Source: Volvox africanus (taxonomy: Eukaryota; Chlorophyta; Chlorophyceae; Chlamydomonadales; Volvocaceae). Taken from it: a stretch of DNA of 64,000 nucleotides. The position numbers and the translations under genes are program-made. The stretch is from contig BSDZ01000078.1 in the NCBI GenBank assembly GCA_030268105.1, positions 6,457,501 through 6,521,500 of the forward strand. Direction: 5' to 3'. The notes beneath the pieces were generated by a model. That model did no database searches, had not been told where the DNA came from, and worked only from the letters and a program-made list of their open reading frames with translations. Every line of letters starts with the position of its first letter. The first letter of the stretch is position 1. Below, piece by piece: positions 5,471-42,400 of the stretch.

Positions 5471-5866
5471 TTTGAATAGAGACCTATTAATTATGAATTT
5501 AGCTCCAGTGGAAGCTCTAATACCGGAATCCACCAGCGACAGGAGATTGCGCAATCCATAATTGGTGACGATCCTCCACGATAAAGGCACAATTACTATT
5601 TACTTTCGACCTTTTTCACTGTGTACCTCCTAGTTGCATTTGCCATTCGTGGAGTCATGCAGTCGTGGACCCGTGCTCACGTCAAAGACGTTGGCCGTTG
5701 GTCGGTTAATCCAAGCACAGTATTGAATGCGAGGCTGTCGCACGCTTGTCATTACGCAATATTTTCTGGAAACGTGCATGTCAAATAACTGGGTTTTACT
5801 GGTTGATTCCTGCAATAATTACCGGTAACGAGCCCTGATATCGCATTTCGCTAGGCTGGTCACACA
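5471..5866. promoter_or_regulatory. Intergenic region between divergent CRM and cyclin genes
   Basis: About 400 bp between the putative start codons of two divergently oriented genes. It must contain both 5' UTRs and promoters and may be a shared bidirectional promoter. No clear TATA box or repeat was recognised. The in-frame upstream extension of the CRM first exon (to 5590) overlaps it. Confidence 0.4.
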
Positions 5867-7368: not shown

Positions 7369-10149
7369 TGGCAGAAATTAAGAGGAAGAATAAATGACCC
7401 AGACATTGTTGCGTGTGAAATGGATATTGCAAGGACCTAAGTACGCAGGTCCGCCATCGGATCAGCGATTGGGTGCCAGCTCGCGGTTTGGGTTTAGGGG
7501 TTTATGGTTTTAGAGGCCACGGTTGCAGCGGTTGCAGCCCTAAGTACTGCAGTCGGGTTGCCGGAGCAGTCGAGGCCTAACGAATGTTGCTCAATAGGGG
7601 TCTTGATGCTGCTGGATGGTTGGTTTTGTTTCGGGGTGAAAGCGTAAGGGCAAAAGCGCGTACAGAGACTGACATCTTGACATGACTGACTGTGAATTCT
7701 TCGGAAGGACCGCAGGACAGCTGCTTAGGACAGGACAGGTGAAGACTCTGCTGTTCAAGTGGGTGCTGATAAGTTGGTATAGTGAACAAGGCTGCGGTGG
7801 CTAGGGCACAACCCGCTAGTAAGATCTACGAGGTTACATGCGTCCGCGATTGGCGCGTCATGGGCAAAAACTATGAAGTAATGGGCATCATTGTAGCGGG
7901 TGTATCCCTGCGCCCCCCTCTGAGGTTTGGCCACGCTCATGATGTCTGCTATGCGGGGTGCGCTCTCGGGATTGTGGCGTATTACAGGACCTAAGAAGAA
8001 GGGGAAGGGGGCGGAAACAGCCAACATGTGCCAGGGACTAATGCAATTGAAGCAATCGAAGCGACGCAGTTTTGAACGGTGCTTAATCCATTTCAATGGG
8101 ACCATACTTGATAAGGCCTGCTGCGATCTGGGTAAATTGCTGACAGACGCCAGCCACTTGATATCCCCTAGGCTGCGTACAGATAATGGAGCTACGGAGC
8201 CTAACAGCTTTGGACATTACTTAGAACGGCCCTAGAACAGTTACGGGTTTCAAATTGTATACACGGCACACGTGGGAAAGCAGCCTTCGTCATGTTCATA
8301 CGGTTTATTAAGGAGTTTTCTTCAATACGGACACGAAATGATATTAGTGTATCAGTGGCTAACAGTATATACTCATAAAGGCCATTTCACCAGAATCTCC
8401 ATTGTCCCATCCTCCTTCCCGTCCGGTCTGCGCTCTGCTGTCTCGACCCTCCTCCTGCGCGCTCGGCTGTTTCTGGCGATTGCATCTCCTATATATTCCC
8501 ATCTATGGCACCCAGAGCCTGCTGGTGATCCGGGCAGTACATCAAAATCCTTATTCGCACGGAAACTGATATCACTCCGGCCTTTCCATTCCCCAGAGTC
8601 CCCAGAGTCCTTCCGTCCTTCGCCTGCAGACTGCTGCTACTCTGGAGCCTCCTTCAAGAGGCCCCTGGGGCCACTCCCCAATCCTCCGGAAACCGCTGCT
8701 GCTCCGGCCATTCCCACAGAATTCCCAGGTGTTCCTTTTCGCCTTTCCTTTCCGTAACTCCTCTCAACTTGCCTCAGCCCGCAAGTGTGGCGTCATATGG
8801 CTACCAATCGTATAGAGGCTGTGTTCGCTATAGGTCACTTTACAACCATAGGTAATAAATAGGAACATCACGAGCTTCTAGCTGTGGGTGCCGGGTGTAT
8901 GCACAGTTGCACGCGTTTATGGCAAATTGCACGTTTTTTGCACAGTTGCGTCTGACTCCCCTGGGAATGCTTTCGGTTTATCTTCTAAAGATGTCGCGTA
9001 CTTTTTGCCCTTGCGCTACTAGGAGTTTAAAAAGTAGTTCCCTTGGACATTTTCGGTAGGTTAGTGCCGTCGTCCTGTTGTGTATGTCGGCCGTTAATGC
9101 TACAATTACCGTTGTATTTGATAACCTCTGCCATTCATCTGTGATTATACCTCATTTAATTGCATCTTCATTCAAACTACTTGCAATGCCTTTCGCCCGC
9201 TAGCCATCTCCTTGGGATTCCTGTCATCGCTATCTTTCAACTTCTTTCGCAATCAGATGCAACGGTCGCATCCAGCAGCAATGCTGGCGCCAGCGCAAAA
9301 CAAGACTACTCGATTACCCCTGGCTTGCCTGTCGTCGCAGAATAGACCCTAAATGGATGTTATTTGTCTAGAAGTTCAATTATGATTTTGTCCTCCTTCT
9401 CAAACTTAAATGGCCCCTTTTGTTTAGGAGTTTCATTTGCCCCTTTGGCGAAATCAATTGTCATTGCTTTGCGTGGACGTGCTTCAGGCTGTCTTGCGGG
9501 ATAATGAAAGATATGATGGTCCAGCCGAAACCTAGCCACGTTCCCAGATTTGCGGGAGCGAACATAAATTTTACGACTTGTTTCCTGCATGCCTCGGTTG
9601 TTGGATCCATCGTACGTTCGATGAATTACATCCCTAACAGAGCAGATCTGCTCTGATTTCAAGCTATGGCCCAACTTTCTGTTGCATATCATTGCAATAG
9701 GTAGACAATAAGAAAGTTGCACTATGTAAACATTAGCTCCTATGATCCTGTTTTCCGTCAAAGAACGATGGGGCGAAAAGAAGGTGCTGCTATCCGCTCC
9801 TCAGGACGGAGCCGTAATAAAACCAGGAGTTCTGCAGCAACGATAATGCAAGCGAGATGTGCCGATTAGAACCCTTTGCGTTCACCGACCCTGAGCCTCG
9901 CCGGAAGCGCGCCAAGTCCGCTAATTCAGGTTTTCCAGGTATTTTTGGGCTCGCATGCTCATCTAGTTGCATGTAGTAATACTGGGCAACGGATATGAGA
10001 TCAGTCGTCCCCACACAGGCGGTTCGTTTCCTGCTGGCGCTGCACCAGCGGCGTCAAGAGGGCGCCAACCTACGCAAGTACATTCCAACCCTTCAGGTGC
10101 GGGATTACCTCCTTCGGGACCTCTTCGCAAGCTCGGCATTAAACACATC
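7369..10149. other. Region without a convincing gene
   Basis: No ORF here has recognisable domains or convincing splice signals. A degenerate telomere-like run (ggtttagggg tttatggttttag) lies near 7490-7515. A 133-codon minus-strand ORF (9360-9761) and a plus-strand ORF entering the AT-rich patch at 9995 look better than random but match nothing I know. Composition falls steadily towards the AT-rich patch that begins near 10150. Confidence 0.4.
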
Positions 10150-11338
10150 TTCTTGCGTAACAAATGACATTTCAATATCGAGCTGGGAAAAGTTTTTAGA
10201 GTCTGTAACCAGCCAGTTTATTGATACTCTTTCTCATTCAAATTATAAGAAAACAAAAGACGGTGCTATAATAAAGCGTAAACAGTTGAAATGCATATTT
10301 GCTTGAGAAAAGATCTCAAATAATAAAGAATTCGTTACCAAAGGGCTAGAAAGGTTAATTAAAAATCGAGAGCTTCTTGGGAATCAGCAATTAGTGTTTT
10401 TATTTTTATCAAAAAAACCCAAGCTATCTGAGTTAAAATTGCCGCTGCACCTACAATTCTATCTGATATATAACCGTCTATCTCCTCGGAAATAATTTTT
10501 TGATCAACTTTAACCTTACGAAAGTAGTATGTTCTACTACGACTAATTTATAATTCCGAAAAAATATTTATTGGGTTTCGCAATAAACATTAAAATGATT
10601 CCCCAGTTTCCGAAAACATCAAGCAAAATACTCCTGAAATGTTTGCATCAGTGGTAAATGAAGTGAAGTGAAGAAAGTAAAGTCAAGAAGTTGGAGGAAT
10701 CTTCATCAAATGTTGGCTCTACTACAGGTTCTAAATGGATTTTGTGATGTCTTTTTCGAGCCAGGAACTATCTTCCGGTTTTTGATACATGTGTTCCGCC
10801 GCAGAGTTCAAGAGATTTAGGAAACTGAATTTAAATAAATACTTTTGACTCAAAAATTTCGTCTAAGACTTGAGTTTCCCTGGCATCACGATCAAATGGT
10901 TTAGCTGTTATCCTTAAAAATACTGTTCTATTTTTTACCTCGATATTACCGTAATTATTCTAACTTTCTTAGCAAACTTGTCTTCCATAGCTTGGTTTTT
11001 ATGCGTTTCTTTTAGAAGAATTTGAAAGTCTAGACTTAAAAAGAGAAAAGATAGTTCTTTTTAATAGTTCCCGAAATCTCAGATTTTGCCGGTATGCAAG
11101 TTTTGAAGCGGATGACAAAGGTAACTAAGAAAGCAGCCAAAAATGAGAACCGGATGGGATGATAATACAAGAAACGCTCCTACATGATTTCATTAATTGG
11201 TGTCTATGTTTAGATCTAATGTAGCCTTTTTCGCAAAAAAATATTGATTTGTTTCAGAACAAGATATTTTGCGAGGAAATTTTACTTCCCAAAGTCATAA
11301 GCCAAGTCGCAAAATGTCTTTATAATATCCGGGATATC
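10150..11338. other. AT-rich patch of bacterial-type gene debris (patch 1a)
   Basis: Composition switches abruptly to AT-rich sequence and stays so until the copia LTR at 11339. Short reading segments of bacterial style appear on both strands, broken by stops; one is an alanyl-tRNA synthetase piece (10768-10831). Another plus-strand run (about 10150-10495, Lys/Asn/Ile-rich, with one internal TGA) and a minus-strand run next to it are unidentified. Interpreted as decayed horizontally acquired endosymbiont DNA by comparison with the other patches. Confidence 0.6.
10768..10831 (-). pseudogene. alaS: Alanyl-tRNA synthetase fragment (C-terminal SAD domain)
   Basis: Minus-strand translation reads SLELCGGTHVSKTGR followed by a stop. 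ELCGGTHV..TG is the signature of the second catalytic/editing (SAD) domain of AlaRS, which contains a zinc-binding Cys and His. Only about 20 residues remain and both sides run into unrelated or frameshifted sequence, so this is a gene fragment within AT-rich DNA. A short motif match, but a very specific one. Confidence 0.6.
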
Positions 11339-11580
11339 TGTTGAGACGTAGACTATCAGAGATTAGGAAGCCTGACGTAATAACGAGAAAATTACGTTAC
11401 ATAGTATCTGATAGTAAAAAGGTCTGAATTGTTCGCTCTGGAGTCGGCACTGAGACTTGCGCGTATAGCAATACAATCTGTACGAGCACGGGTCGATAGT
11501 GTACTGCTGAGTACAGCTACAACAGCACGATTGTTGCTAGTACGGATCGTCATATCCAACCGATATCTCACTTCATAACA
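11339..11580 (-). repeat. LTR of copia element A (3' LTR)
   Basis: A 242-bp LTR running from TGTTGAGACGTAGACTA to TTCATAACA (TGTT...AACA ends). Its start recurs at 16408 and 20684, and its end recurs at 16501. It marks the left end of the Ty1/copia cluster and directly abuts AT-rich bacterial-type DNA at 11338. Confidence 0.8.
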
Positions 11581-12011
11581 CGCCCCCTCGAGATGTGCCT
11601 AGCAACAATTGAAAGACGTTAACTCCAACCAGGGACTCTTCTTGAAACCAAAAACTAAGCCAAACGAGCTCACCCTAAGCAAACTCTGAATGCTTACTCG
11701 GCCAAGCCCATTGCCATAATGCACTACCTTAACTTGATCTCTCCAAGTGCCTTAGTTCATCTGCTACCATATCCTCCGTCGAACAATGAGACAAGGCAAC
11801 TTCCTTCCTCGAGACCCGCTCCCATACATGCTTTTCTGTCTAGTGGCACTTATATTTAATTAAACCTTTTCTCTTTTACTGAAGATAAGCACTTTTAGGA
11901 CACAAACATAACTAGGAACCAATATATAATAATTTCACCAGTCAACAGGAATGAACCATCCTTACCAATTATTTGCTTTAAAAATAACCATATTGACAAA
12001 CTGTTGCTGCT

Positions 12012-12300
12012 ATGCAAGTAAAACAGCCAAATTCAGAACCTAAACCCAACTTAGATATGCAAATAACTCAGTCACAAGAGGCGCATTTACCTCTAGCTCA
12101 AGACAAAAAAATTGCTTCTAAAGAAAATAAGACGACTGAAATTCAGTCGGAACGTTTTTGCTTTTGTCTTAGGGATTTTAGCAGCTCTTTTAACGGCTGT
12201 TTATTCTTTAAAAATCATTATGGCTACTTTTCATGGTAAAACCACTCTTTCTGAGGATATTTTTAGCCATGCAAAAAATCGCATACAGTTTTTTATCATC
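12012..12300 (+). pseudogene. Bacterial-type small membrane protein, frameshifted
   Basis: A start-codon ORF gives a hydrophilic Gln/Lys-rich N-terminus (MQVKQPNSEPKPNL...) to about 12155. The reading then continues in another frame with a membrane helix (FAFVLGILAALLTAVYSL), followed by KIIMATFHGKTTLSEDI. One frameshift between 12150 and 12170 restores a plausible single-pass protein. AT-rich codon use is unlike the algal genes around it. The family is not recognised. Confidence 0.45.
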
Positions 12301-12420
12301 GTTATCATATAGTGTGGATAACGAAATATCGTTATAAAGTACTTACTCACGACATAAAGAAACGTGTTCGGGAACTAGTTTTACAGTTAGCTGAGGAAAC
12401 GGGTATAAAGCTAGAAAACG
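12267..12420 (+). pseudogene. tnpA: IS200/IS605-family transposase TnpA, N-terminal fragment
   Basis: Plus-strand frame reads SHTVFYHRYHIVWITKYRYK, then VLTHDIKKRVRELVLQLAEE. H.VW.TKYRYKVL at the N-terminus is typical of IS200/IS605 Y1 transposases. About 50 residues remain; the later HUH motif and catalytic Tyr are absent because copia element A resumes at about 12421. This is a prokaryotic insertion-sequence gene broken inside a eukaryotic retrotransposon. No IS ends or hairpins were recognised. Confidence 0.7.
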
Positions 12421-12423
12421 GGT

Positions 12424-12960
12424 GATGTTGCACATCGATGTGCCTAGAACGAACCGACGTTATCAGGTTGTTCCCAGTGCTCATCGCCCCCTGGGAATCG
12501 GTCTGGATCTTTATCACCTCTGTCCCCAGACCCAAATCTCCGGCCAACTTGCAAAGCCAAAGCGCCTCCCATACTGCAGCTGCCGTGGCCTGGTATTCCG
12601 CCTCCGAAGTTGCCACTGTGCGCTGCAATTGGCTGTTCCAGCTGATAGCTGCTCCACCTAGCAGAAACACGTAACCGGTTGTGGACCTCTTAGTGGCTGG
12701 ATCTCCAGCCCAGTCGGAATTGCTGTAGCTCACCACGGCTAGATCGCCATCTCCACCAAAGCACAGTCCGAGCTCCTTAGTACCCGCCAGATATCGAAGC
12801 ACCCCCAAAGCCAAGCCCAGGTGAGCCTTGGACGGCTTCCCCATAAAACGTGCCAAAACACTTATTGCCTGTGCAATGTCGGGTCTTGTACTCGTCGCCA
12901 GGTAGTTTAGTTCGCCGACAAGCGCCCTGTACTTAGTGCTGTCTGCGAGCCCCTTGTTCT
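12424..12960 (-). pseudogene. Copia A RNase H domain
   Basis: Minus-strand translation contains YSNSDWAGDPATKRSTTGYV, the acidic SDWAGD motif opening copia RNase H, then SWNSQLQRTVATSEAEYQ with the catalytic E of SEAEY, and TDSQGAM with the third acidic residue. The C-terminal end (after HIDVQHH) is lost in the bacterial insert. Frameshifts break it. Confidence 0.8.
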
Positions 12961-20595: not shown

Positions 20596-20683
20596 TGTGA
20601 AGACCTATAAACGCGAAGATCAACACTAGAAATGGGCAAAAGTTGTCAGGCTCTGCGGTCAACGATGACCGGGGGTCATAACC

Positions 20684-20955
20684 TGTTGAGACGTAGACTA
20701 TCAGACATAAGGAAGCCTGACGTAATTACGAGAAAGTATAAGTTACATATTTTCTGATAGTAAAAGAAGTCCGAATAGTTCATTCTGGAGTCGGCACAAG
20801 TATATGTGCCTATAGCACTACAAACAGTATGAGCGTGGGTTGATAGCCTACCACTCAGTACAGCTACAACAGTGGGATTGTTGCTAGTATGGATGTCTAT
20901 ATCCAACTGATAGACCATTTATAAAATGGTATATCAGATAGTCAACATCTCATCA
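20684..20955. repeat. Head-to-head LTR junction of copia B and C
   Basis: An LTR in minus orientation starts at 20684 (TGTTGAGACGTAGACTATC). At about 20922 it runs into a short remnant of element C's LTR in the opposite orientation, ending at 20955 (catctcatca). The boundary forms an imperfect palindrome (ctgatagaccatttataaaa / tggtatatcag). Internal sequence of C (ggttttgagccctggtcaac) follows directly. Confidence 0.7.
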
Positions 20956-23041: not shown

Positions 23042-23636
23042 AAAGGTGTGTTGGTTGGATACAAACAAGGGAGGCAGTATCATATTCTGATTGACAATGT
23101 CATTAGCATTCACTTGGCAGTCAAGTGTGACGAGTCAACAGTTGGAGATCGCCTGTCAACACCAACATGGGCCAGGGAGTTGCTGAAGTGAACTGTGGTG
23201 CATCCACCGGCAGCGGCCAGACAGCGGTGCCACAGAGGCACAGAGGCATGCCAGCAGCACAGTTTCCCCGGACGCAAAATACAGAGCAGTCCCGTGGGGG
23301 CTTACCGAGAAGGGGCAGGGCCGGTACAGCAGCAGGACCACAACAATGACGGTGCAGATGGAATCATGCAGGAACGTCGCTGTCCGCTACGTGAGTGAAA
23401 GCAACTGATTGAGTGGAGGCACGGGCCCAATGGCAGGGTCCCGTTTGGGTGAATCAATGCTGTGATCGTGGACGAGATCCCAGAGCCAGCTTCGTATCAG
23501 GAGGCAACTGACAATCCAAATGCTGAAGAGTGGAGACGTGCCATGGACGAGGAGATCACGGCACAGCTCACGATCAGGACCTGGGTGCTAGCAAAACCAC
23601 TGGCCGGTGCGCGGATATTGCAAAAATAGTATGTGT

Positions 23637-23905
23637 AAAAACGATTTTTAGCTATGGGTATAGTTTCTTTGTCTACCTTTTGTCTGTTTTCTTTTTGTTT
23701 AATTTTTTCTAATTTTGTGGCAAAATCGTTGCGTTTTGGTGTGGACAAATTGGACAAGTATAATAGCATTTACAAAAATGTTATTGCTAATACTATTATT
23801 GTAGTTAGGAAATTGGCAGCTGAACGTCCACTAATTATTCCCATATTATTACCACTGCCACCAATGCCGTTTAAACCATCGGTACTAGTTTTTAGAAAAC
23901 ATTTT
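23637..23905 (-). pseudogene. secG: SecG fragment (protein translocase subunit)
   Basis: Minus-strand frame reads TDGLNGIGGSGNNMGIISGR then SAANFLTTIIVLAITFL, a TAA, and MLLYLSNLSTPKRNDFATKL followed by a Lys-rich tail. The G-rich loop, SGR.AANFLT and the second membrane helix are the SecG pattern. SecG is a membrane partner of SecYE in bacterial protein export. The internal stop within the second helix and the missing first helix make it a pseudogene. Confidence 0.75.
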
Positions 23906-24026
23906 GATATATTCCTATTTTACATAAAATTTAGAATAGTGATGATTTGCTGAATGAAAAAATAACAAATAACGAAAAAATTATACTTGAACCAGGTTAA
24001 TAAACATGAGAATAGACAGTCTATTT

Positions 24027-24199
24027 TATCATTTTTTTACCTTCATCGGTGAAATATTTTTAAACAATTTCCATCGATAATTTATTCTGATCGATTGATC
24101 TACTTGTTCTTTAGTAGGCACTTGAACAGCTCTTTTATCTAACATCTTATCTAGATGCCAACCGAACTGAGTTATTACAGGGTCAGAAACCTCATTTTT
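24027..24199 (-). pseudogene. Unidentified bacterial-type fragment
   Basis: It is open in one minus frame from directly after the sucC stop. It reads NEVSDPVITQFGWHLDKMLD, then KRAVQVPTKEQVDQ and a basic tail ending at a TGA. Lys/Ile/Asn-rich codon use matches the neighbouring bacterial fragments. I do not recognise the family. Confidence 0.4.
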
Positions 24200-24382
24200 T
24201 CAGGGTAAAAGCTTTTCCTTTATATTCATGCTAATTAATGCAGCGATTTCTGGATGTCTAAACAAGCCATTATCATCAAAATTGAGTTTTGCATCAAGGG
24301 CAAGTAAATTTCCTTCTGTATTAACTCCCAAGGGGTTTATCTCTATTTGCAATGCATCAGTTCCTATAAACGTGTATGCCTA
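24200..24382 (-). pseudogene. sucC: Succinyl-CoA synthetase beta subunit fragment
   Basis: Minus-strand translation reads [20 protein letters not shown] then [20 protein letters not shown] and PEIAAL. EINPL...G.L.ALDAK.NFDDN..FRHPEI is the highly conserved ATP-grasp core of SucC. About 45 residues of a roughly 390-residue enzyme remain. The N-terminal side is fused to gyrB and the C-terminal side soon ends in TGA. Confidence 0.85.
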
Positions 24383-24540
24383 AAGAAAAAGTCAGTAGTA
24401 AGGTCCTAATATGAAAACCATCAACATCAGGATCGGGCATGATAACAATTTTATAATAACGCAGTTTTTCGATATCAGTAAACGGCAAGTTTTTGAAAGA
24501 TTTAAGCTGGTCTTCCATAAAGATCTATCCATAAAGCTTT
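24383..24540 (-). pseudogene. DNA gyrase/topoisomerase IV subunit B fragment (TOPRIM)
   Basis: Minus-strand frame reads [20 protein letters not shown], then [34 protein letters not shown] is the metal-binding TOPRIM motif of GyrB/ParE; here the first acidic position is intact, but the usual T-D-A is changed to P-D-P. A TAG lies just upstream. It is fused after LTF to the sucC piece. GyrB and ParE cannot be told apart from 45 residues. Confidence 0.85.
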
Positions 24541-24545
24541 GTCTG

Positions 24546-27500
24546 ACGTCGTCTGCTTGGAGTAGCGATCTCCAGGTATGTAAGCAGCTCCAAACAACGG
24601 CCGCCTTGGAGCTGCCGACGTATCTGCGAAGGACGCAGCTGGTGTCGGCGATGCCGCTGGCTTGAGTCATGCCCGTACAAGGGCCAACGGCCGCACCTGC
24701 CCAAGCTCCTATGCATACCGGGACAAGCAAGACACCACGCAGATGGGCAGGCAGATGGGCCAAGAAGATGCGAAGACGATTGCAAAGGCAGATTACACAT
24801 GGGTGCGGTCCGATCGGAAGCAGAATGTGCAATAGGGCGGCTCTCTCAGTGAACCTCACCAGGCGGCAACTGCTTGTGGTTCACACGCTTCAGCAGCCAG
24901 TACAGGGGGCGGGGCAGCGCCAACCACAGTGGCAGAATGGGCACGCAAGAGGCAGGCTTGGGGACGCAGCTCCTGGGCCGTTCGTAGCACCCGGCACCAT
25001 CAAGCGACCGTCAGAGGACCCTGTGTTGCGCACTCCAATTATAATCGGGGTCAGGGCAGAGGCAGCTGCCAACGCAGCAATGACCATGTCACGGTCCCTG
25101 CGGTCAGCTGCGAAAAATCCATCCAGCGCTACAGCACCTGATGGACAGAAACTGTCCTAAGAAAACGAGTAGGCGCCGGCAGGTCTCCAGGATGGTCAAG
25201 TTCGTGACAGCCGACCCCGTATCTGATGCTGCAGGGCTCACCATTGCAGCTCCCGGAGGGCCTGGAAAGGACCTCTGACGGAAAGGCTGCAGCCGGAGCG
25301 CCTTTCGGCAGGTCAACCCTCCAGCCAAACTCAAAGACCAGGTTTGGGACCCAGCGACACTGGGGAGGCTCAAGCCAGGAACATGCCCACGGCTGCTGCC
25401 AACAGAGCTCTCACGCTAGAGGCCCACCAACAGGGGCCCACCAGCAGGGCGGTGACGGACTTTCAGTGGCGAGCTTTCCGGGGCCATCCGACGGGACAAG
25501 GGTATCCAAACCTACACCCCGGAAACGTGTGACAGACCTAGGCATCAGACATACCCCCTTCTCGCCGCCTTGTCTCAGGAATGATCGTCTTTGATGATAC
25601 AATATACGCAACTACCTTACCTCCAAGTTTGCATTGTATGTGTGCGGCACGTACACACGTTATGGTCGGTGCTACTGGTGCATCACATAGCCCCGGGTGT
25701 GAGCCGGAGCGAATTCAGGTCGTGCCAACGGCAATACATGTCGTTTATAATGCCAGATGAAAGCCTAGGTGGCTTTGTCAGCGAGCTCCTTCGTGGAAGG
25801 CGTGTTGCTGTTTCCTCGCCCCACCTTCACGCCACCTTTCGCCTCACGGGGCGGCGGTGATGATGCCGGTTTTGTTGGAAGCCATCCCCAAAGCCAGCAG
25901 CTAGGATACTTGAAGCACTTCAATTTTTCCTTGGCTCAGTTATTCTTATACGAATACCTGCTTACTTCCTGTAAATGCTTGTGTGTGTCTGTGCGTTTGT
26001 CGTGTGTCGTGTGCCCATTTGCAGGATCCATACAAATTCGGCTGAACTGCCAGCTTGGTCCTTACGCCTTCCCTCGCCAGTTGCGTGACCGCGCTGACAT
26101 CTGTGTTGTGCTGTCGAACGGAGACGGCAAAGAAACGGATTGCGCTGCATGGAATAGTCTGGCGTCGGAAACGGCGGGGCGCTGGGGTAACTTTTCAGAA
26201 AGTCAGCATCAAGCCATGGCCGCCGAGAGCCCCCTCGTAACGCTGGTAGGTAGCTGAAGGCTGGGGAAAGGCACGGGTGTGCTCAGATTGTAATTACTTT
26301 GTGCGAATGCCTTCATTGCACGAACAAGCTGTTGTGTTGTTGATTACATCGGCTCTAGCATGTTGTAGGTTGCAGTGCAGTGGGACGTATTTCGCCACCT
26401 CGTCTGGCATGGACTGAGAAACAGTCGGTGATGTACTCTAAATGCGCGCCCATCGTATCCGTGATTGGCATGATACCTATCGAGCCTTCCACTGTGGGGG
26501 TGGGAGGGCTCCAACCGTAACGGTACGATGCTTTACTAACGGTACGATGTTTTACTAAGGTGCAACCTGAGTCTCCATTCCACTTCAATAACTGTCGTGG
26601 AGAGATTGCACCCAAGTGCTGGCAAGGCTGGCCCTGATGTGCACTTCCTGCAACGCAGGAGGTATGTGCGTGTGAGGGGAGGGTCCGAGAGTGCTCTTGT
26701 TCCGCCAGCTCCACGAGCGCTCTGATGATTGTTCATTACGAAATTCCTTGTACAGGCGGCAGGTTCGTATTCGTCCTACGTTTTGGAATTTGCGCGGTCA
26801 GCTATACGTTGTCGTCACCGTGTACTGTAATAAATTGCATAAATCAATGTGTGTTTCCGGCGATGACGCAGTTCGATAGATTTTGCACGAACCATAATCG
26901 GGACACTTAATCATGTCGAGTACACTCACAGAGTTCAAAGTACGGGAGGGAAGTCGAAAAAAACGAAACTGGTGCTGACACTCAAGAAACAAGAACTAAC
27001 CGTGAGGGTCGAATGATCGCTGACGCCGTCCAAAGTAGGAAAAGTGGAAACGAGGGTGAGGGTGTACGGGAGGTGAGGGTGGGGACCATGTTCTGATGCG
27101 GGACGCAGGGAGGATGGTGCCAGGGAAGCTGGGTCAGTTGGGGGGGAGGGGGAAAACAAAGTCAGTAAGATTTTATTATATGAGGGTTGATGGCCAGAGA
27201 GCCTGTCAGCGGGAGGATGCCAGCAGTGTGCACAACATGGGCACAGTAGTTGCTGTGTCATTTGCTTCGAGCCGCGGCCAAAACTGAAAAGGGCCAACAA
27301 GAGAGCACGAGGATTTTCCGAGCCTTGGAACTCTGCCCCTGCCCCTGCCCCTGCCCCTCTCGCCGCATCTTGTCGCCCAAAATGAGCACCTTGTCGATAC
27401 CTAGGGCTCGCAGCGCCACCGTCATCACCGCCTGCTCAGCAGTGATAGACGGGGGGTGAGGGAAGGGCGACTAAACAGGTTCTGGTGTTGGAGACGAGGA

Positions 27501-29700: not shown

Positions 29701-30103
29701 CACGGTCGGCTGCGCGCGTAGGAGTCCCAGGATGCTGTTGAAGATGTTGCTGCTGCCGCTGTTTGGCTCTTCGGCGCTTGAGCCGAGCCGCCATCTGCTG
29801 CGTCTCAGACTCCGTTGGAGATACCTTGAAACGGGAGACTACTCGGCTCCACCGCTCGGGGTTGAGTCCAGGGAAGAAACGGTCCTTGGGAAAGTGAGAG
29901 GGAAGGAGGAGGTGGCGACGGGGCCCGCATGCGTGGCTTGGGCTGAGGGACGGAGATGCGGTGCAGCAGGAGGGAGGCGAAGGCGGTGCCTGGCGCGGGA
30001 GGAGCGGGCGCTGGGGTCCCAGGACACCTACTGGAGTTGCTGCTGCTGCTGCTGCTGGGTAGGCGGGTACACAATGGCAGTGCTGTGAACTGATTGAAAT
30101 CAC
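29245..30103 (-). CDS. Possible Gln-rich protein, partial
   Basis: A minus-strand ORF (29387-30103) contains FFPGLNPERWSRVVSRFKVS then TESETQQMAARLKRRRAKQR and a polyQ run, which looks coding from about 29900 to 29540. After REAIDRVML a donor-like gtggtt may splice to an exon near 29370-29250 with an acceptor catgcag. Two phase choices give different C-termini, so the end is not fixed. No known domain; the basic helix plus polyQ would suit a nuclear protein, but this is weak. Confidence 0.3.
29655..29695. repeat. (GCT/AGC)n trinucleotide repeat
   Basis: About ten consecutive gct units (ttgctgctgctgctgctgct...). They encode the polyglutamine run of the minus-strand ORF. Confidence 0.8.
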
Positions 30104-30560
30104 ATCAGACTGGGCAAATGAGGCAACGGAAGCAGCGGCGGTGCCCTGGGGACAGGCCCTAGCGCATACCTATGGGAGCCCAGAGCCACTCGCGATACGC
30201 CATTCACCTCATGTGCATTTTGGATGCCAGCGGCCGCAGGTGCAGGCTTTGAAATATGGTTGTTGGAGTGTTTATTCCTCTAATGTCAAGGTGAATGAGT
30301 TGTGCACTCGTTTTGGTCAGCGCCAGCAACACGCTGCAATGTAGCACTTCGAGACCCATGGGGCTCCAAGGCTGATGAGTCATCAAGTTTCACGGAGTTA
30401 CCATCGTCCCACGAGAGTTCAGTCCCCCCAGGTGGGCAGGGTTGCAAAACGAGACACGGACAAGGAGAAAGATGCCGCTTTGTCGCCAAGTCACATCACG
30501 GTGGTCACGACAGCTTTACTGCTGTCGGAGTCCGCAACTTGAAGAAATACGATGAGGCGG
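30104..30560. other. Spacer between the Gln-rich ORF and patch 3
   Basis: GC-balanced sequence with only short overlapping ORFs and no domain or splice structure that I can support. Composition drops sharply at about 30545-30565. Confidence 0.4.
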
Positions 30561-30611
30561 CAATCATTTTCACATACACAATATTAACGAAGACATACAA
30601 AGTGTTGAACA

Positions 30612-30888
30612 CCATTTAAGAAATTTGGAGGACCAGCCTGCAACATACTCCAGAATTCGTTCTCCGGCATTATTAATATTGGACCCTACAAATATTGGGG
30701 ATCTTGTCATAAGATTTTCAGCTTTTAATGTTTGAAGGTTGTTATCTATACTTCTTCTTAGATCACCGTGCGTAATAACTCCTATTTAATTTGGGTTGTT
30801 ATCTATTACTATAGCACATCCTAGTTTTTTTCTGTTATGATTTCTGCTACCTCAGTAACGGAATAATCCGGGTTAACCAAACCTTTGG
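30612..30888 (-). pseudogene. kdsD: Arabinose-5-phosphate isomerase CBS-domain fragment
   Basis: Minus-strand reading gives GLVNPDYSVTEVAEIITEK, a one-base frame change at a run of A, then LGCAIVIDNNPN, a TAA, IGVITHGDLRRSIDNNLQTL and AENLMTRSPIFVG. GC.iViD....iG.ITDGDLRR...........MT..P is the tandem CBS region of KdsD/KpsF, enzymes of Kdo synthesis for LPS. The sugar-isomerase domain is missing. One frameshift and one stop show decay. Confidence 0.8.
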
Positions 30889-31030
30889 TTTTAAGAGAAT
30901 CAATAATATGCCTGTAATCAATGGCATAACCTTGATGAACCCTAGGCATCTTCTGTAAACATTTGTTACCATAATAGAGTTCTATTTCTTCAGCATAAAC
31001 ATATGCTATTGGATTTCTGGACATCATCAA
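30889..31030 (-). pseudogene. istA: IS21-family transposase IstA fragment
   Basis: The minus-strand ORF from 31030 reads NPIAYVYAEEIELYYGNKCL then QKMPRVHQGYAIDYRHIIDS LKTK before passing in frame into the KdsD piece. VE.Y..N.L....PR.......IDYRHVIDSL is the C-terminal region of IS21-like IstA transposases. Only about 45 residues remain and the DDE core is absent. Confidence 0.6.
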
Positions 31031-31132
31031 CCATCGGACCTGGTTTATTACTAACCCAATTTATAAGATTATGAAATGTATTATCCTATCAGGATTAGAA
31101 GGCTCCCAAACATATACTTTTTAGCCGGCTTT

Positions 31133-31533
31133 GGTAAAAAGAAATTAAACTGGCCCTTTATGTTACTCTTCAGCTGGATATTTTAATTCCCGTCAGAACT
31201 TAAATCATATTGGTGCCGGCTGTGAAATGTATAACTGCTTGTGAAATTGCTTTATCATTACCCTTCTTCGTATTTAATCGTTTTAAATTTAGATTTTGAA
31301 CATGTTTACCACTATTTGTGTGCTTTTCTAATTGCACTGCATTTCAGTTGCTAATACTCAATGTGGGCACTTTCTTGTGGTAAAATGAAATTAAACTGGC
31401 CCTTATTGTTTCTCTTCAGCTGAATATTTTAATTCCCGTCAGAACAGAAATCGTAATGGTGCCGGCTGTGAAATGTATAACTGCTTGTGAAATTGCTTTT
31501 GCATTTACCCTTTTTTGTATTTAATCGTTTTCA
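31133..31533. repeat. Direct duplication, about 150-bp units 246 bp apart
   Basis: The units at 31133-31285 and 31379-31533 share long identical runs (gtgccggctgtgaaatgtat, aactgcttgtgaaattgctt, ttttaattcccgtcagaac) with scattered differences. On the minus strand both encode a segment containing KAISQAVIHFTAGT, so an unidentified bacterial coding fragment may have been duplicated. Confidence 0.8.
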
Positions 31534-31560
31534 AGTAGTTTTACTTGAAAACGATTAAAT
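31519..31560. repeat. Perfect inverted repeat, 18-bp arms, 6-nt loop
   Basis: The arm atttaatcgttttcaagt (31519-31536) is exactly complementary to 31543-31560 around agtttt. The left arm is the end of the second direct-repeat unit. It could be a bacterial intrinsic-terminator-like stem, an element end, or a snap-back duplication like the one at 14577. Confidence 0.85.
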
Positions 31561-31860
31561 ATTTTGCGAATTTGCTCGCGACCTGAAATTTAAGGAGCAT
31601 TTCCTTGCTAGTAAGCAACGTAATACCCTATTATTTCTTTAGAGGGTTCCTTCTTTAGAGTTCCTTCTTTAGAGTTAGGGTTACTTCCTTAGAGCGTTCT
31701 CTAGCTTGTTCTTTGGTAATCCTATGGTACTTTAACTGTCACCTCTCCCATACCAATTTATATATTACGCTCAGTTTGTATACTATCAATTATTCTGCTT
31801 TCATTGACAACGTATAAAACTTCAGAGCGTAGGCGGGAGCTGCTGCGTCCTCGCCTCAGC

Positions 31861-32791
31861 CTTCGGCTGCTCTATGGCCACTGAAGCTGGAGCCCGCTTC
31901 ATTAAGACTCAGGGCAAATGCTCACGTCCTCGCGCCGTGGCAACAATCACTCATAGACGTCTGAAGCAGAAATGTTCAGAATTTCAAGTTTATTATCATG
32001 CTTATGAAAGGAAAGAGAGTAGGGCGGGCCGGGCAATAAATTGCGGCAGAAGGACTCACTACAAGACAGCGGCAGCAGTAACAGCGCTGATGCAGCTTTC
32101 AACCCCACTGAAGCGACCCAGATGGCCCTTTCCAGATCGCCACTTTGATCCTGGTTGGTCCAATTTATATGCATCCACGCCGTGCATATTGCGCGCGTGT
32201 ATGTGGCAATAAAGCCTCAAGCTGTATCAACGCCGCCGTGACCCCGTCCCTCTCCTCGCCCCGCCTGCCCCGGCGCGCCCCTGTATCGCCCTCTGGGCTG
32301 TTCGCACGTTGTCTCTCGCCCCCTCGACCAGACCCCCGAAGTTAGCCGACCAGGCCGCCCGCAGCTCCTCGTCACTGCTGCCAGCCGGCCTAACGAACGA
32401 AGTCGCTAACAGGGGCCCGCCTGCAGGCAGAGGGGCAATTCAGGGAGGAGGTGGGTAATTAAGTCCCGTACATCACCACGATGATGGGGATGGGGATGGG
32501 GTGACCTGAAACCGTTAAACTATGTTTAGTGTGGGTTAAGAATGTCAGATCTCGCGACTTGGTAATGGTAATAAGATGAGCGAATTGCGAGAGACACGCA
32601 CCGTTAGGAGGCATTTGAAAGCCTCCCGGCAGTGCGGGTGTTGCTCGCATTCTCAATCCCGCGCTGTCATCCGTTTCACGCTGACAGGACCGACCGCGGT
32701 TCGGTCAATCCACGCATCGTATCGATGCACAAGTAGAGCATCGACATTACTAATGACTCCCTGAACCTCCAGGTCGCGTCATCTGATGGAG
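31861..32791. other. Spacer downstream of the NOL8-like gene
   Basis: GC content returns to the local norm. ORFs are short and overlapping, with no recognisable domain. A (ggggat)n run (gatgatggggatggggatgg) sits at about 32480-32500. It must contain the 3' UTR and polyadenylation site of the minus-strand gene that ends at 32792; the signal was not identified. Confidence 0.4.
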
Positions 32792-35700
32792 TCATCTTCC
32801 TCTTGATGCACGAACGCACGTCCGCCTACCAGCCAGCCTTCGCGACACTGCCAGAGGCTGCCTGACGCGGTTTCTTTTGTACAGCACCACCATATGCCAT
32901 GTGCCATCATCACCCGCCCCGTACAGTACGTGAGCGGTGCGCATTACCGTGTACGCCACTTCAGCCCTGGAGATCAGGTCATACAAAAGCTTTATGTCCA
33001 CCAGAGCCCTAATTTGCACGTGCGCCCAGGGGCATGGACCCACAGTCGTGTGTCGCACCCCAATGTCTGTGCACCCACCACTCGCTGGCGGTTGCTGCTT
33101 CTGCCGCACCAAGAGGGACGCGGACGGTGCTGAGGCGGAGCGCTGCCTCTCCCTTACTGGGGCCTCCAAGGCCTCCGCATCTCGGGAGCCACCGCTGTTC
33201 TGACCGTCGCCCACATGGGGCTCCTCTGTGGGCGTGGGAGCTGGGGGCCCACCCTTACGAACGGAGTCACTTGCTGTGCGCGCTGGGGTCCCGATCCCGC
33301 GGCCGCCTCCTGCACGTCCCCTGCCACCGCCGCTCTGCCGCCGCTGACTTCCCCTGCCGCCTGAGCCGATCACCTTATGTTCGTACAACGTCATGCCACT
33401 CCTCCCCTTCCCGCTCCTTGCTGCTCTGGAGCCATCCTCCTCCACGTCGTCCAAGAAGCTCACCCAACCGGCGGAGGGCAGAACTGCTTGGAGGCGCTTG
33501 GAGGCAATCACTGCAGCTGCAGTGGCGGGAGCGCCGGGGACCATAGCGGCGGTGGTAGCGGCGGCACCCTGTACGCGGCCCGACACATCCTCCGTCTCCA
33601 AGTCGGTGCTGTCCACATCGTGAAACACCTCACAGTCGCTGTCATTGTCGCCGCCGAACCTGGCAAGAAGATCCTCCGCAGGGGCCCCGCCCCGCCGGCC
33701 CCCGGGGGCCCCACCCCTGTGCGGCCCGATGGGCACGAGGGGGGCGTCCGGAGCACTCAGCCGACGGGAGGGGGCGCTTCGGACAGCAGCTGCCGCTCCG
33801 TGACGAACACCACCCGCCTCCACCGCGTCGGAGAGTTCTCGTGATCGCTTTGAAGGCCGGGAATGCATACCAGGCGTCACCGAAAAAGGAGCGACCCGTG
33901 GGACCTTCGGCTCCGCCATTGGCGGTGCTGAAGGCGGGACGACCCGTGGGACCTGCGGCTCTTCCATAGGCAACGCTGAACGCGGGGCGACCCGTGGGAC
34001 CTTCGGCTCCGCCATTGGCGGTGCTGAAGGCGGGACGACCCGTGGGACCTGCGGCTCCCCGACTGGCGGCGCCGAAAGTGACACCGGTGGTAAAGTGTTA
34101 ATAATAGAGGATGCCTTCGCTGTCCTTCTTCTCGAAGTCAACTTGGCATCTCCCGTACCATTGCTGCCGCTGCGGCCTCGCATGGGCCTTGCCGCCAGCA
34201 CGGTGTGGCCCAGGGGCCCGCCACTGCCACTGCCCGCTCTTATACCGTGGAAATCGTCGCTATCGCTATCGCTGTCCGTAGACACATCTCCATCCTCTTC
34301 GCTCCTCCCGAGCTCATCCGAGTCGTCGAACTTATCCAGCATAAGCTGCTGCGTCTGCTGCTGCAGGTATCTGCTGCCAGCCGCTTCGTCCCTGTCCAAA
34401 AAGTTCACCACTCCATCGCCGCCTTCTTCCGAGCCTCCCGCCACCCCAGCCTTCACCGCAACTGACGCATTCGCCTGGCCCCTCAACGCCATCATCATCA
34501 TCATCTGCTGCTGCTGCTGCTGTTTCGCTCCCTTCGGGCCTTTCCAGGACCCGACTGCAGTGGTGGCCCGCGCCTCCATCACACGGGCCGCTGCCGCCTC
34601 CTCGGCACTTCGTTTGCGCGTCTCCGAATCAATGGCTTTGAGCACTTTGAACATCGACAACATCTCCCCACGAACCTCCCTCTTGGTGACGGGCACGGGC
34701 GCCGGTAGGGCTTGTTGCAGCTGGCGCGAGCCGGTGGCAGCGGACGCCGCACCCTCATTAGCGTCACCGTTTATAACGGCAGCAGCCCCAGCAGCCACTA
34801 CCGGGGCATCCTTGTCCTGCAGGCGCAGCAGCTTTGTGCTGCCCTTACCACCCGTTTCTGCTGTTGGAGTCCGCCCCTGTTCAATGTGCTGTTGCAAGAA
34901 GCCGGGCTGCTTTGAAGGTGGCATGTTGGCACTCACTCCATAATGCGAATTCATACTCCCCACGGCCTGAGCAACAAGGGGGCCCGCAGCAGCAGCGGAT
35001 TGGGTGTAGGGGCTCATTGGCTGCGCCCACACATGGTTAAGGTAGTAGAGAACGCTGGGTGCCCCCGCCGCGGCTGAGAGAGTGCCGGAGCGAGCTGCGG
35101 CAAGTGGCAGCTCAGTGCGGCTGCGCTTTCGTGGACGGGCCGCTGCGCCTCCATCCGTCGAAGGTGGAGTGTTCAAAGGAGGCCGATAAGGCCCGTTCTC
35201 TGTAATGCTGCCACCACCAGTCATGCTGTCATTGCCACCGTCAAAGTCATCCTCATCCTCTTCCTCATCGCTGAAGGCTCGCAGCAGCTCCCCGAAATCC
35301 TCATCCCGCTGCCACTCGAGGCGGGATAGCGGCAGTGGGGTGACGGCAGGAAACGAGCGCCGGGGAGGTTTGGCGGGCTGGGCCAGGTTCACTTCAATAG
35401 GGCGGCGGCGGTTGTGGGGATTGGGCAAGTTAAGCGGCTGGGACAAATCGGCGGGTGCGGGTGGAGGCACGGGGCCTGTGGGGCGGGAGGAGTGTGTCGC
35501 GGCTTTTGCACGCTTGGCTGCTGCGGCGTCAGCAGCTGCGGTGGCGGCAGCTAGCGAGGCAGCTGATACCTCGAGTGGAGGCAAGGGGTGCATTGATTGG
35601 GATGGCTTTGCACAAGGAGGCCTCGTGGGAGCTGCTGTTTCTTCTGATCTCGGCAGAAACCAGTTCCCAGAGTCAAATGACTGCTGAGCCGTTTGCAGAA

Positions 35701-36155
35701 CCTGCTGAGGCTGTTTTTCCTCAAGGCTTGCCTGCTCCTGCCATTCCACGTGCAGACGGGCCAGGTAGCTGGGTTTGGCCAGCTCGACACGGAGAACGTT
35801 TCCCCTCCATTTGCTGTGATTGTATACGCTTAGGCATTTGTGCACTGATGCCTCGTCCTGCGACGTCCATTTCAACCGACGGACAATCAAGAAGAAAAAA
35901 ATGCCTCTTTTAAGTTTCATATGAAATTGATGCTGCCAAATTTACCTTTGGATCTAGTTCTATGTAGGCGAAACCTCGGCATTTTTCCCCACTGAACGTT
36001 TGAGACGACATCTGAGCAACTGCCGTTTTGATTTGATGGTCCTTCGGGGGGATTATTTCAATAGTCTCAACCTTGCCGAAAGGACTAAAACGGGACCGCA
36101 GGTCGGCGGCGGAAATGTCATGCGGCAGGCCGCCAAGGAAAAGGCGAACAACCAT
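32792..36155 (-). CDS. NOL8-like nucleolar RRM protein
   Basis: Two exons: 36155-35946 and 35857-32792, joined in phase 0 across an 88-bp intron (donor gtaaat), about 1091 residues. The N-terminal RRM has RNP2 (RLFLGGLPHDI) and RNP1 (CRGFAYIEL), then CLSVYNHSKWRGNVLRVELA KPSYLARL. This KW.G..L...LAK.S...RL extension matches the start of NOL8 (yeast Nop8), needed for 60S ribosome biogenesis in the nucleolus. The rest is low-complexity and acidic (EEEDEDDFDGGND, STDSDSDSDDF), with SLD-rich islands such as GWVSFLDDVEEDG. A 15-residue unit (SAPPMAEPKVPRVAP) repeats about four times (33890-34080). RRM identity is firm and NOL8 orthology likely. It is divergent from the SET gene, 290 bp away. Confidence 0.75.
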
Positions 36156-39400: not shown

Positions 39401-42400
39401 CTGAAGCCGCCACCACCACCACCACCACCAGGACGGTCAGAAGCCGGGATGAGACGCCCTCCGCCATTTCAGAGCTGCTGCAGCCGTACGACGCCCCTTC
39501 GGAGCTGCGCGTTTGGGGCACTATCGTACAGCAGTTGGAGAGTCGGTTGGCAGCGCTCATCGGCAGCGATGAGGAGGCATGCGACATCCTGGGGCTCAAA
39601 CCGCCGCCGTCGCCATCGCCGCCACCGCCAGGATACGCACCAGACAACCCCTTGGCGCCGGCCTCACTGCCTCCGCCGGGGTCATCCGCGGTATCAGCGA
39701 TCCGAACGCTGCAGCGCCCCAGACTGCTGCTGCCGTCAAACTGGTTGGAGAGTATGTACGGCGATGGCGGCGACGATGACGGCACTCTGAAGCTGCCGAC
39801 CGACCCATGGGGTGAACCGGGTCGAGGCGACGTGAACGACTGTTCGGTGGCTGTGGAGGGGGGCCCGGGGGTGGGGTCTGCGGCTGAAGGCGGTCGCGTC
39901 TCTATGGAACACAGGTGCTTTTTAAAGTGGCTGCATGAGTCAGAGGCGGCGGCGGAGTGGCTGGGGTTAGGACGCCATGCCCGAATGGCGTTGGCGGTTG
40001 TCAACGGCCAACGGGCGGTGCTAACGGCAGCACTGTGGCAAGCGCAACAACGGATGGCGGCGTTGCTCCAGGTGCGGACGTGTCAGCACTTGACGAGTGG
40101 GGGGATTCCCTTCAGATGCCCGGAAGCGGTTATGAGGGAAGGGGGGAACCGAGACAGGGGTAAGCTCACTATGGGCAGCTGATTGATCAGAGCAGCTGGT
40201 TGATCGTCCCAATATGGAGAAGGGAGGCCAACGATTAGCATTTTGATTTGGGTGTACACGGTAGGCCGTACATGGTGATGCTGTCTTCATCTGGGGAGCC
40301 GATGGGGCGCTGCGCCCCTAATACCAAGTGCTGGACGTGAAGAGCAAAGACGTGCACGCAATGAAAGAGGAGGTGAAGGAAAGTGCAACGGCTTCTGAAT
40401 CGATGTCAGCATCACACTACACACGGTTTCATGGGTTACAGCGTTTATTTAAAGCCCGGTTTCAAAAGCGAAACACCACCCGCTCCCCCTCCCTTTCACA
40501 ACCCCTTACCTTCCCCCCTCAGCCCCGAATTCATATGCCATGTACCCTCACCCGGTACCATGTCTCACCACATCCGCCATCTAGTTCTGTTGTTAAAGCT
40601 TATGTGTGTAGGATAGGGGGGTACATCACCCGTGGCCACTAACCTGGCAGTCCCTACCTTCCCCGGTGTTTCGGGGCACCCTCATCCAGTCTCCCATGCC
40701 GACTTCTCCGAAATCAGTGGTTTTCCCAGGTTCAGCACCCACCACCAGCATCCAGCGGAATCTGCCGAATCAACTAAGGCGTCAACTCCGCTACTGGTCA
40801 GCTCGTAGGTCACTTTAATTGGGGTCGTCACCGTCCATCGACATGGGGGCACCCTGCCCTTGACGTTAGGGGTCTTTGGCACGCTCTCGGTCGGGGTAGA
40901 ACCTGGAACTCCAGGGGCATGTTAGTCGTGCCGTAACAGTCGTGCCTGAACACTGTATATCTATTTTTGTCTGCTGCTACCTTGTCCCAACTTTCTAGAC
41001 CACCTGCGCCATCGCTGCCACACCTTCGCTCTGCTCGGAGACTATACTACATGCACCGAGGATCAACTCCTGCGGTAAGCCCTCCCTGGAGCTACTGTTG
41101 GCCCCGCACGAGTATCACCAAATGCATCGGCGCCATCAGCACCGTACGGAAGGAGCGGCGCTAGCAGCTGGCGAGCTTGGCGATATCGGGCCCCAAGCAA
41201 GTGAGGCAACGGCCGGGTCGAAGGGGGATAGCATGGGTGGTCGCGGAGGCGGGCGCAAGAGCATGCTGCTGCCGTACGGTGTAGCGGTACGCGTGCAGCG
41301 GTTCGTGACGGCAGGCGGTGAAGTAATGCGACTGCCCCTGGACCATTGCCTCTCCGCAACCACCTTAGAGCTGCTGGTGGCGCGGCTGGTGCTGCTAGCG
41401 GCAACCCAGCTATGGCCACAGCAGCTGCAGCCACCGTTGCCTCCCGTCCCCCACGGGCAGCAGCACCATAACCAACACCTACACCAACATCACCAACACC
41501 AAGAGCAGGAGCAGGAGCAGGAGCGCCTCTCACTGGGAGGGGCAGCCTGTGCTGTGAGCCGCGAGGTATGCACGGGGTTAACCCTACCACCCGGAAATCT
41601 TAATTAGCCCTGAGTATTGTTGCGGAAGGGAACGCGATGTCGGGTAAAGTGGTGGCCGCTGGCAGCGAATACCCGCGCGGCACATTGAAGTACTGCCCGG
41701 CATGACCCATGGCTCCGTGGAACCGTGGTTCCTTAAAGGCCACAGCTGCAAGGAACGGGTCACGAAGGAGCCATGGTATGGGTTGTCAAAAAAGGGGAGG
41801 AAAGGAGAGGAAAGGAGAGGAAAGGAAAGGAAAGGAAAGGAAAGGAAAGGAAAGGAAAGGAAAGGAAAGGAAAGGAAAGGAAAGGAAAGGAAAGGAAAGG
41901 AAAGGAAAGGAAAGGAAAGGAAAGGAAAGGAAAGGAAAGGAAAGGAAAGGAAAGGAAAGGAAAGGAAAGGAAAGGAAAGGAAAGGAAAGGAAAGGAAAGG
42001 AAAGGAAAGGAAAGGAAAGGAAAGGAAAGGAAAGGAAAGGAAAGGAAAGGAAAGGAAAGGAAAGGAAAGGAAAGGAGAGGAGAGGAGAGGAGAGGAAAGC
42101 AGAGGAGAGGAGGGGAGAGGAGAGGAGGGGAGAGGAGAGGAGGGGAGAGGAGGGGAGAGGAGAGGAAAGGAGAGGAGAGGAAAGGAGAGGAGAGGAAAGG
42201 AGAGGAGAGGAAAGGAGAGGAGAGGAGAGGAGAGGAGAGGAGAGGAGAGGAGAGGAGAGGAGAGGAGAGGAGAGGAGAGGAGAGGAGAGGAGAGGAGAGG
42301 AGAGGAGAGGAGAGGAGAGGAGAGGAGAGGAGAGGAGAGGAGAGGAGAGGAGAGGAGAGGAGAGGAGAGGAGAGGAGAGGAGAGGAGAGGAGAGGAGAGG

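Follow-up and report, generated by a model that had tools for sequence, protein, structure and literature searches.

Endosymbiont DNA fragments of Candidatus Megaira apparently joined end to end at a broken copia element in Volvox africanus

Introduction

How do fragments of unrelated bacterial genes come to lie end to end beside a broken copia element in an algal chromosome? The question is raised by a short patch within a 64,000-nucleotide stretch of Volvox africanus DNA (henceforth, the window), which corresponds to positions 6457501-6521500 of a 7.50-Mb contig (C75) in an assembly of 141 Mb and 126 contigs. The patch very probably consists of endosymbiont DNA that was shattered, end-joined at a break in the copia element and subsequently left to decay neutrally, as a nuclear mosaic without function. 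Elsewhere in the window, positions 55255-55902 hold an exon resembling arabinosyltransferase XEG113, with relatives in green algae (Haematococcus) and many land plants, and the open reading frames at 32792-35920 (1042 aa) and 61984-63942 (652 aa) have no Pfam match at E 0.001.

Extent and composition of the patch

The patch at 23618-24477 is a mosaic of five pieces of the chromosome of Candidatus Megaira (Rickettsiaceae), which account for 849 of its 860 bases; its GC content is 0.312, compared with 0.537 in the left flank and 0.606 in the right flank. The features are as follows, with identities referring to the Megaira genome MegNEIS296 and to a Megaira bin from Lake Erken.

23144..23621, plus strand: copia element, flanking the patch on its left; similarity to it ends at 23621 in six of six copies compared
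23618..23893, minus strand: piece 1, Megaira secG region; MegNEIS296 235531-235811; 84% to MegNEIS296, 83% to the Erken bin; TIGR00810, 1.3e-3
23896..24050, minus strand: piece 2, spanning the point where two Proton_antipo_M genes meet (NADH:quinone oxidoreductase/Mrp type), both typed by Pfam; MegNEIS296 near 538.3 kb; 84% over 23896-24015; right edge at 24015 in a stricter alignment and 24050 in a looser one
24045..24236, minus strand: piece 3, C-terminal part of a Megaira ppiC-type peptidyl-prolyl isomerase; MegNEIS296 1069894-1070090; 85%; NF008038 and NF000809, about 1e-5
24242..24370, minus strand: piece 4, Megaira sucC; MegNEIS296 807115-807243; 87% to MegNEIS296, 91% to the Erken bin; TIGR01016, 1e-14
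24375..24477 (end at 24475 or 24477), minus strand: piece 5, Toprim part of Megaira gyrB; MegNEIS296 1198830-1198931; 82% to MegNEIS296, 85% to the Erken bin; TIGR01059, 1.9e-11
24478..24540, no strand assigned: AT-rich right end of the patch; 63 bp, GC 0.333

The original prediction had described four fragments of 130-270 bp between 23620 and 24540, three of them named as secG, sucC and gyrB. Those names hold, and the fourth, unnamed fragment is real and belongs to ppiC, whereas the piece at 23896-24050 had been missed and the lengths are in fact about 101-276 bp. The Megaira pieces end at 24477; considered as a sixth piece, the remaining 24478-24540 matches neither of two Megaira genomes significantly (best E 0.066). 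As had been foreseen, no piece is a whole gene: each is a gene part or a gene junction, cut inside a gene or at a junction, and none carries an intact open reading frame. Being fragments, all of them fall below the NCBIfam full-length cut-offs in profile matches of their translations, which are strongest for sucC (TIGR01016, 1e-14) and gyrB (TIGR01059, 1.9e-11, with Pfam Toprim above its own cut-off), intermediate for the SurA/PrsA-type isomerase (8.8e-6 and 1.1e-5), and weak for secG (TIGR00810, 1.3e-3). A secG family search across the host genome gave no match; such family searches therefore miss short decayed pieces.

The pieces abut almost directly, with, in order, a gap of 2 bases, an overlap of 6 (in which one of the two sides departs from its reference at a single base), a gap of 5 and a gap of 4, where the edges are accurate to a few bases, the references being 9-18% diverged. 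Fragments that are not adjacent in the donor thus meet within 10 bp of one another, as in mosaic organelle insertions. The close meeting of gyrB and sucC had been noticed before; it lies between the end of sucC at 24370 and the start of gyrB at 24375, and not at about 24383. The copia element indeed breaks at the start of the patch, as proposed: its homology reaches only 4 bases into the secG piece (end 23621, piece start 23618), and in the 38 copia matches listed, from 40 candidates scored out of 115, it ends within 23616-23621. One copia protein encoded in the window shares 66-76% identity with five proteins of Volvox africanus and V. reticuliferus. The right flank (24478-26500) was also considered as remaining copia or repeat and rejected, with no match at E 1e-6 to six copia copies (parts compared), to sampled tiles of the host contig C36 (described below) or to the rest of the window.

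Donor lineage and source loci

The patch was compared with three Rickettsiales genomes, namely Ca. Megaira MegNEIS296 (closed chromosome CP084576.1, 1,448,425 bp), the Megaira bin from Lake Erken (ErkenSummer_bin-4287) and, as the third, another Rickettsiales bin. Against MegNEIS296, the DNA of 23600-24560 resolves into five pieces with E values from 2.3e-77 to 1.1e-21, whose source loci for secG, Proton_antipo_M, ppiC, sucC and gyrB lie at 236, 538, 1070, 807 and 1199 kb, respectively. The same five sources sit on five contigs of the Erken bin, and the third bin is matched by only two patch pieces, on different contigs. With identities of 81-91% to the two Megaira genomes, the donor is a Rickettsiaceae endosymbiont lineage, Ca. 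Megaira, in agreement with the predicted endosymbiont origin.

A natural bacterial locus is consequently rejected, since the sources are unlinked in MegNEIS296 and in the Erken bin, and the two pieces found in the third bin lie apart; five distant places on one 1.45-Mb chromosome bear out the earlier statement that the arrangement is not bacterial, and the same order and junctions, sought in all three Rickettsiales genomes, were found in none of them. The single orientation that had been reported stands for gene sense, which is minus in all five pieces (chance 1 in 16), but not for the donor chromosome, where the pieces lie on strands +, -, +, - and - of MegNEIS296.

Decay of the patch

Three-way alignments were made for the secG, ppiC, sucC and gyrB pieces, with the Proton_antipo_M piece left out for spanning a gene junction. 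Changes unique to the patch number 14, 17 and 28 at codon positions 1, 2 and 3, against 3, 3 and 28 unique to MegNEIS296 and 4, 4 and 26 unique to the Erken bin; the contrast of 31:28 in the patch with 14:54 in the Megaira genomes is significant (Fisher p 2.0e-4), the secG alignment taking in some non-coding ends. The pieces also carry stops and frameshifts. From the spread of changes over codon positions, it follows that the pieces are relaxed and non-functional; the patch has been released from purifying selection and decays neutrally. That the patch should represent horizontally acquired genes still in function, or a natural bacterial locus, is scarcely credible: the bacterial genes are recognisable and share one sense, yet the pieces are cut inside genes, unlinked in the donors, interrupted by stops and frameshifts, and relaxed at their codon positions.

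Further mosaics in the window

The window has four low-GC runs that exceed 500 bp; each contains Megaira pieces, and two further mosaics could be delineated.

10138..11311, no strand assigned: first part of the second Megaira mosaic, built of some 13-14 pieces (38-76 bp) whose donor loci are scattered
11338..11582, no strand assigned: host LTR-like repeat within the second mosaic; matches the 20683-20924 family and C36
11830..12271, no strand assigned: last part of the second Megaira mosaic, in which three pieces abut (11830-11996, 11987-12152 and 12153-12271)
30675..31727, no strand assigned: third Megaira mosaic, drawn from four or more source loci (421.5, 1297.5, 684.8 and 774.8 kb)

Across 10001-12500, many pieces of 38-174 bp are drawn from the whole Megaira chromosome, and each of the 16 source segments retrieved for the 10138-12271 mosaic matched back. 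The sources of its last three pieces lie at MegNEIS296 positions 1330507, 648493 and 1379763 (84, 93 and 91% identity); positions 11987-11996 are common to the first two of these, and the second and third abut at 12152|12153.

A young mosaic on contig C13

Another host contig, C13, is matched near 3.743-3.746 Mb by two Megaira segments that are about 260 kb apart. Many pieces of this 3-kb locus, C13:3742801-3745800, match the Erken bin, 16 of them with placed sources on 12 bin contigs, and these placed pieces make up about half of the locus. Eleven of the 16 are 100% identical to the bin, and the others reach 99.5, 99.0, 98.4, 93.5 and 92.3%. Blunt or microhomology joins, which can be recognised only approximately in the window patch, are present here: seven neighbouring pairs show overlaps of 2, 6, 1, 0, 1 and 1 bases and one 3-base gap. 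When joins are drawn at random from 12 kb of Megaira DNA, the mean overlap is 0.78 bases, under which the observed sum of 11 has P 0.025, an excess that rests on six joins, the pair with the 3-base gap being left out. As the match of the young mosaic to a present-day Megaira is exact, the joins in it can be resolved to the single base, and the route of transfer becomes testable with regard to lysis, fragment size, DNA or RNA as the material, and joining before or during integration.

Genome-wide load and nuclear setting

For an estimate of the load, three Megaira segments of 12,225, 3,102 and 3,129 bp (18.5 kb; 1.27% of the chromosome) were compared with the host. They gave at least 45, 8 and 14 matches, hence at least 67 (in one candidate list behind this count, 40 of 71 were scored), on at least 26 of the 126 contigs and at 78-100% identity; the segments were chosen around patch genes, so that each includes one patch match. 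Without contigs C26 and C36, at least 52 matches remain, with a median of 114.5 bp. Scaled to the chromosome from this thin sample, in which parts of the first segment are matched many times and may be mobile elements, the load would be about 4,100 pieces and 0.7 Mb without C26 and C36, or about 5,300 pieces and 1.3 Mb with all of the at least 67 matches. As a control, a stretch of 6,342 bp from the third Rickettsiales bin had 2 host matches, a figure that measures specificity and not sensitivity, this bin being also more diverged from Megaira.

Contig C36 (695 kb) carries a fuller isomerase gene that is 85% identical to the ppiC piece of the patch; a 75-residue part of it is 100% identical in MegNEIS296 and ErkenSummer_bin-4287 and 69% in the third Rickettsiales bin. 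Its DNA at 43,004-45,740 is 86.5% identical to MegNEIS296. The GC content shifts to about 0.33 near 38.4-39 kb, and among the sampled tiles it is low at 40-100, 150-160, 200-210, 250-260 and 350-356 kb, mixed at 300-310 kb, and host-like at 400-410, 450-460, 500-510 and 600-610 kb. The open reading frames at 38.8-78 kb, named by eye, presumably include many truncated bacterial genes. Beside the Megaira-derived tract, a 299-bp tandem satellite occupies the two tiles tested (1-9,894 and 30,001-33,329). Within the tract, which was sampled in tiles over about 38.7-356 kb, lie an LTR-like host repeat and a repeat that is 96.6% identical to window 40601-40953. It also holds recurring units of about 11.27 kb at 99.9% identity; given these host repeats and recurring units, the Megaira-derived DNA on C36 is nuclear and amplified. 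On C26, about 1.627-1.682 Mb, at least 11 matches to one 12-kb Megaira segment occur at 89-98% identity, some at regular-looking offsets, and this cluster may represent a mobile element or a further insertion that was amplified.

The patch itself appears nuclear from its surroundings, as it is embedded in a 7.5-Mb contig, with copia on one side and GC-rich DNA on the other, and has no other bacterial context. Library chimeras can give short abutting foreign pieces, and contamination or an assembly chimera would accordingly resemble the patch in form; against this stand its position within the long contig, its decay, the host repeats inside Megaira DNA elsewhere, and the similar pieces on at least 26 contigs, all of which render such an artefact extremely unlikely.

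Origin of the mosaics

In the preferred explanation, a Megaira bacterium in an ancestor of the Volvox-like alga would have been broken down, with lysis or digestion as the putative source of fragments, and its chromosome cut to pieces of roughly 40-280 bp. Unlinked pieces would have been joined end to end, bluntly or through microhomology of a few bases, by end joining of the non-homologous or microhomology-mediated kind. The resulting chain would then have filled a double-strand break in the copia element, presumably a single one at the copia end and in one event per mosaic, before the inserted mosaic decayed neutrally. The joins of the old patch and of the young C13 mosaic fit end joining, which supports the original view that small pieces were ligated; repair of a break at the copia end is a probable setting for this ligation. 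According to one paper, editing in Chlamydomonas relies mostly on end joining; no Chlamydomonas precedent for captured filler DNA was found in the literature searched. With respect to carriage by a virus, one 28-base pattern across the sucC/gyrB join had no exact match in viral_contigs, which is a weak test.

Gene sense bears on whether DNA or RNA was joined. Called under a strict open-frame rule in the mosaics, it is 0 plus and 5 minus in the patch, 4 and 4 in the 10138-12271 mosaic (8 of 16 pieces callable), 7 and 1 in the C13 mosaic (8 of 16 callable), and 0 and 2 in the 30675-31727 mosaic (2 of 4 callable). Alternatively, a reverse transcriptase, perhaps that of the adjoining copia element, may have switched between Megaira RNAs to give a chimeric cDNA that was then inserted. 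The single sense throughout the patch and the 7 to 1 lean of the callable C13 pieces are what this route predicts and speak against end joining of DNA, and an RNA intermediate has been proposed for Wolbachia pieces in Brugia (PMC3849323). Nevertheless, sense is evenly mixed in the 10138-12271 mosaic and not uniform even in C13; the mixture in the former favours DNA end joining over reverse transcription, although not decisively, and the RNA route is regarded as quite improbable.

In another alternative, the pieces may have been copied instead of ligated, through template switching during replication or break-induced repair; the template may have been Megaira DNA itself or DNA inserted earlier in the nucleus, for instance on C36. 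The observed joins, with their short overlaps, suit copying and the ligation of fragments alike, and a large Megaira-derived tract does exist on C36. However, the ppiC copy on C36, at 85% to the patch, is no nearer to it than MegNEIS296 is, so that C36 as now seen was not the template of the patch, and the young C13 mosaic matches a free Megaira genome exactly; copying is considered rather unlikely, and end joining of DNA fragments remains the preferred reading.

On a broader scale, there is a slightly better than even case that Megaira infections, occurring repeatedly, have left a continuing fossil record in the nucleus, in which DNA of dying symbionts (about 40-300 bp) was concatenated by end joining as break filler. 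Such a record would comprise several thousand pieces (4,100-5,300 by extrapolation; about 0.7-1.3 Mb) that differ widely in age and stem from more than one strain, one of these being near-identical to a present-day bacterium. Pieces of this kind would document past infections, and at the same time they form a trap for horizontal gene transfer surveys and metagenome binning.

Comparison with known systems

Rickettsial pseudogenes were reported in 2015 from one region of Volvox carteri (PMC4324946), and these inserts are cited as partial Megaira inserts in PMC9098888. As described in the former paper, that region resembles the present case in the kind of donor ('hydra group' there, Megaira in PMC9098888), in its volvocine host, in its incomplete genes, in a host transposon lying inside, and in a truncated 16S that adjoins a truncated murB. 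It differs in being a few kb long with genes of 0.7-0.9 kb, whereas here the pieces measure 40-280 bp, the mosaics are several and the load extends over the genome. The same paper describes the host lineage as non-phagotrophic; the lineage is also a model for multicellularity.

Among other systems, Wolbachia DNA in chromosome 4 of Drosophila ananassae (PMC4299567) resembles the long multicopy tract on C36 and not the small-piece mosaics. The nuwts of Brugia malayi (PMC3849323) are likewise many small endosymbiont pieces, most of 100-200 bp and of a range of ages; they differ in that the relevant passages describe no end-joined mosaics and favour RNA transfer, and in the animal host. Within the literature searched for nuclear insertions of Megaira or Rickettsiales DNA in algae, for organelle mosaics and for nuwts (subscription papers and preprints lying outside its scope), neither small-piece endosymbiont mosaics nor such a load was found. 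There is also a likeness to plant organelle mosaics (numins, complex numts and nupts), in which, according to PMC6215612, distant donor fragments also abut with blunt or microhomology joins; there the donor is a mitochondrion or plastid, and here it is a bacterial endosymbiont, Megaira, contributing short pieces. The patch thus works like mosaic organelle insertions while being nuclear endosymbiont DNA; what is new, here in a Volvox-like alga, is the shattered mosaic form, together with the abundance that it appears to have and the young examples among the mosaics. If true, this would extend organelle-type mosaic insertions to a bacterial endosymbiont.
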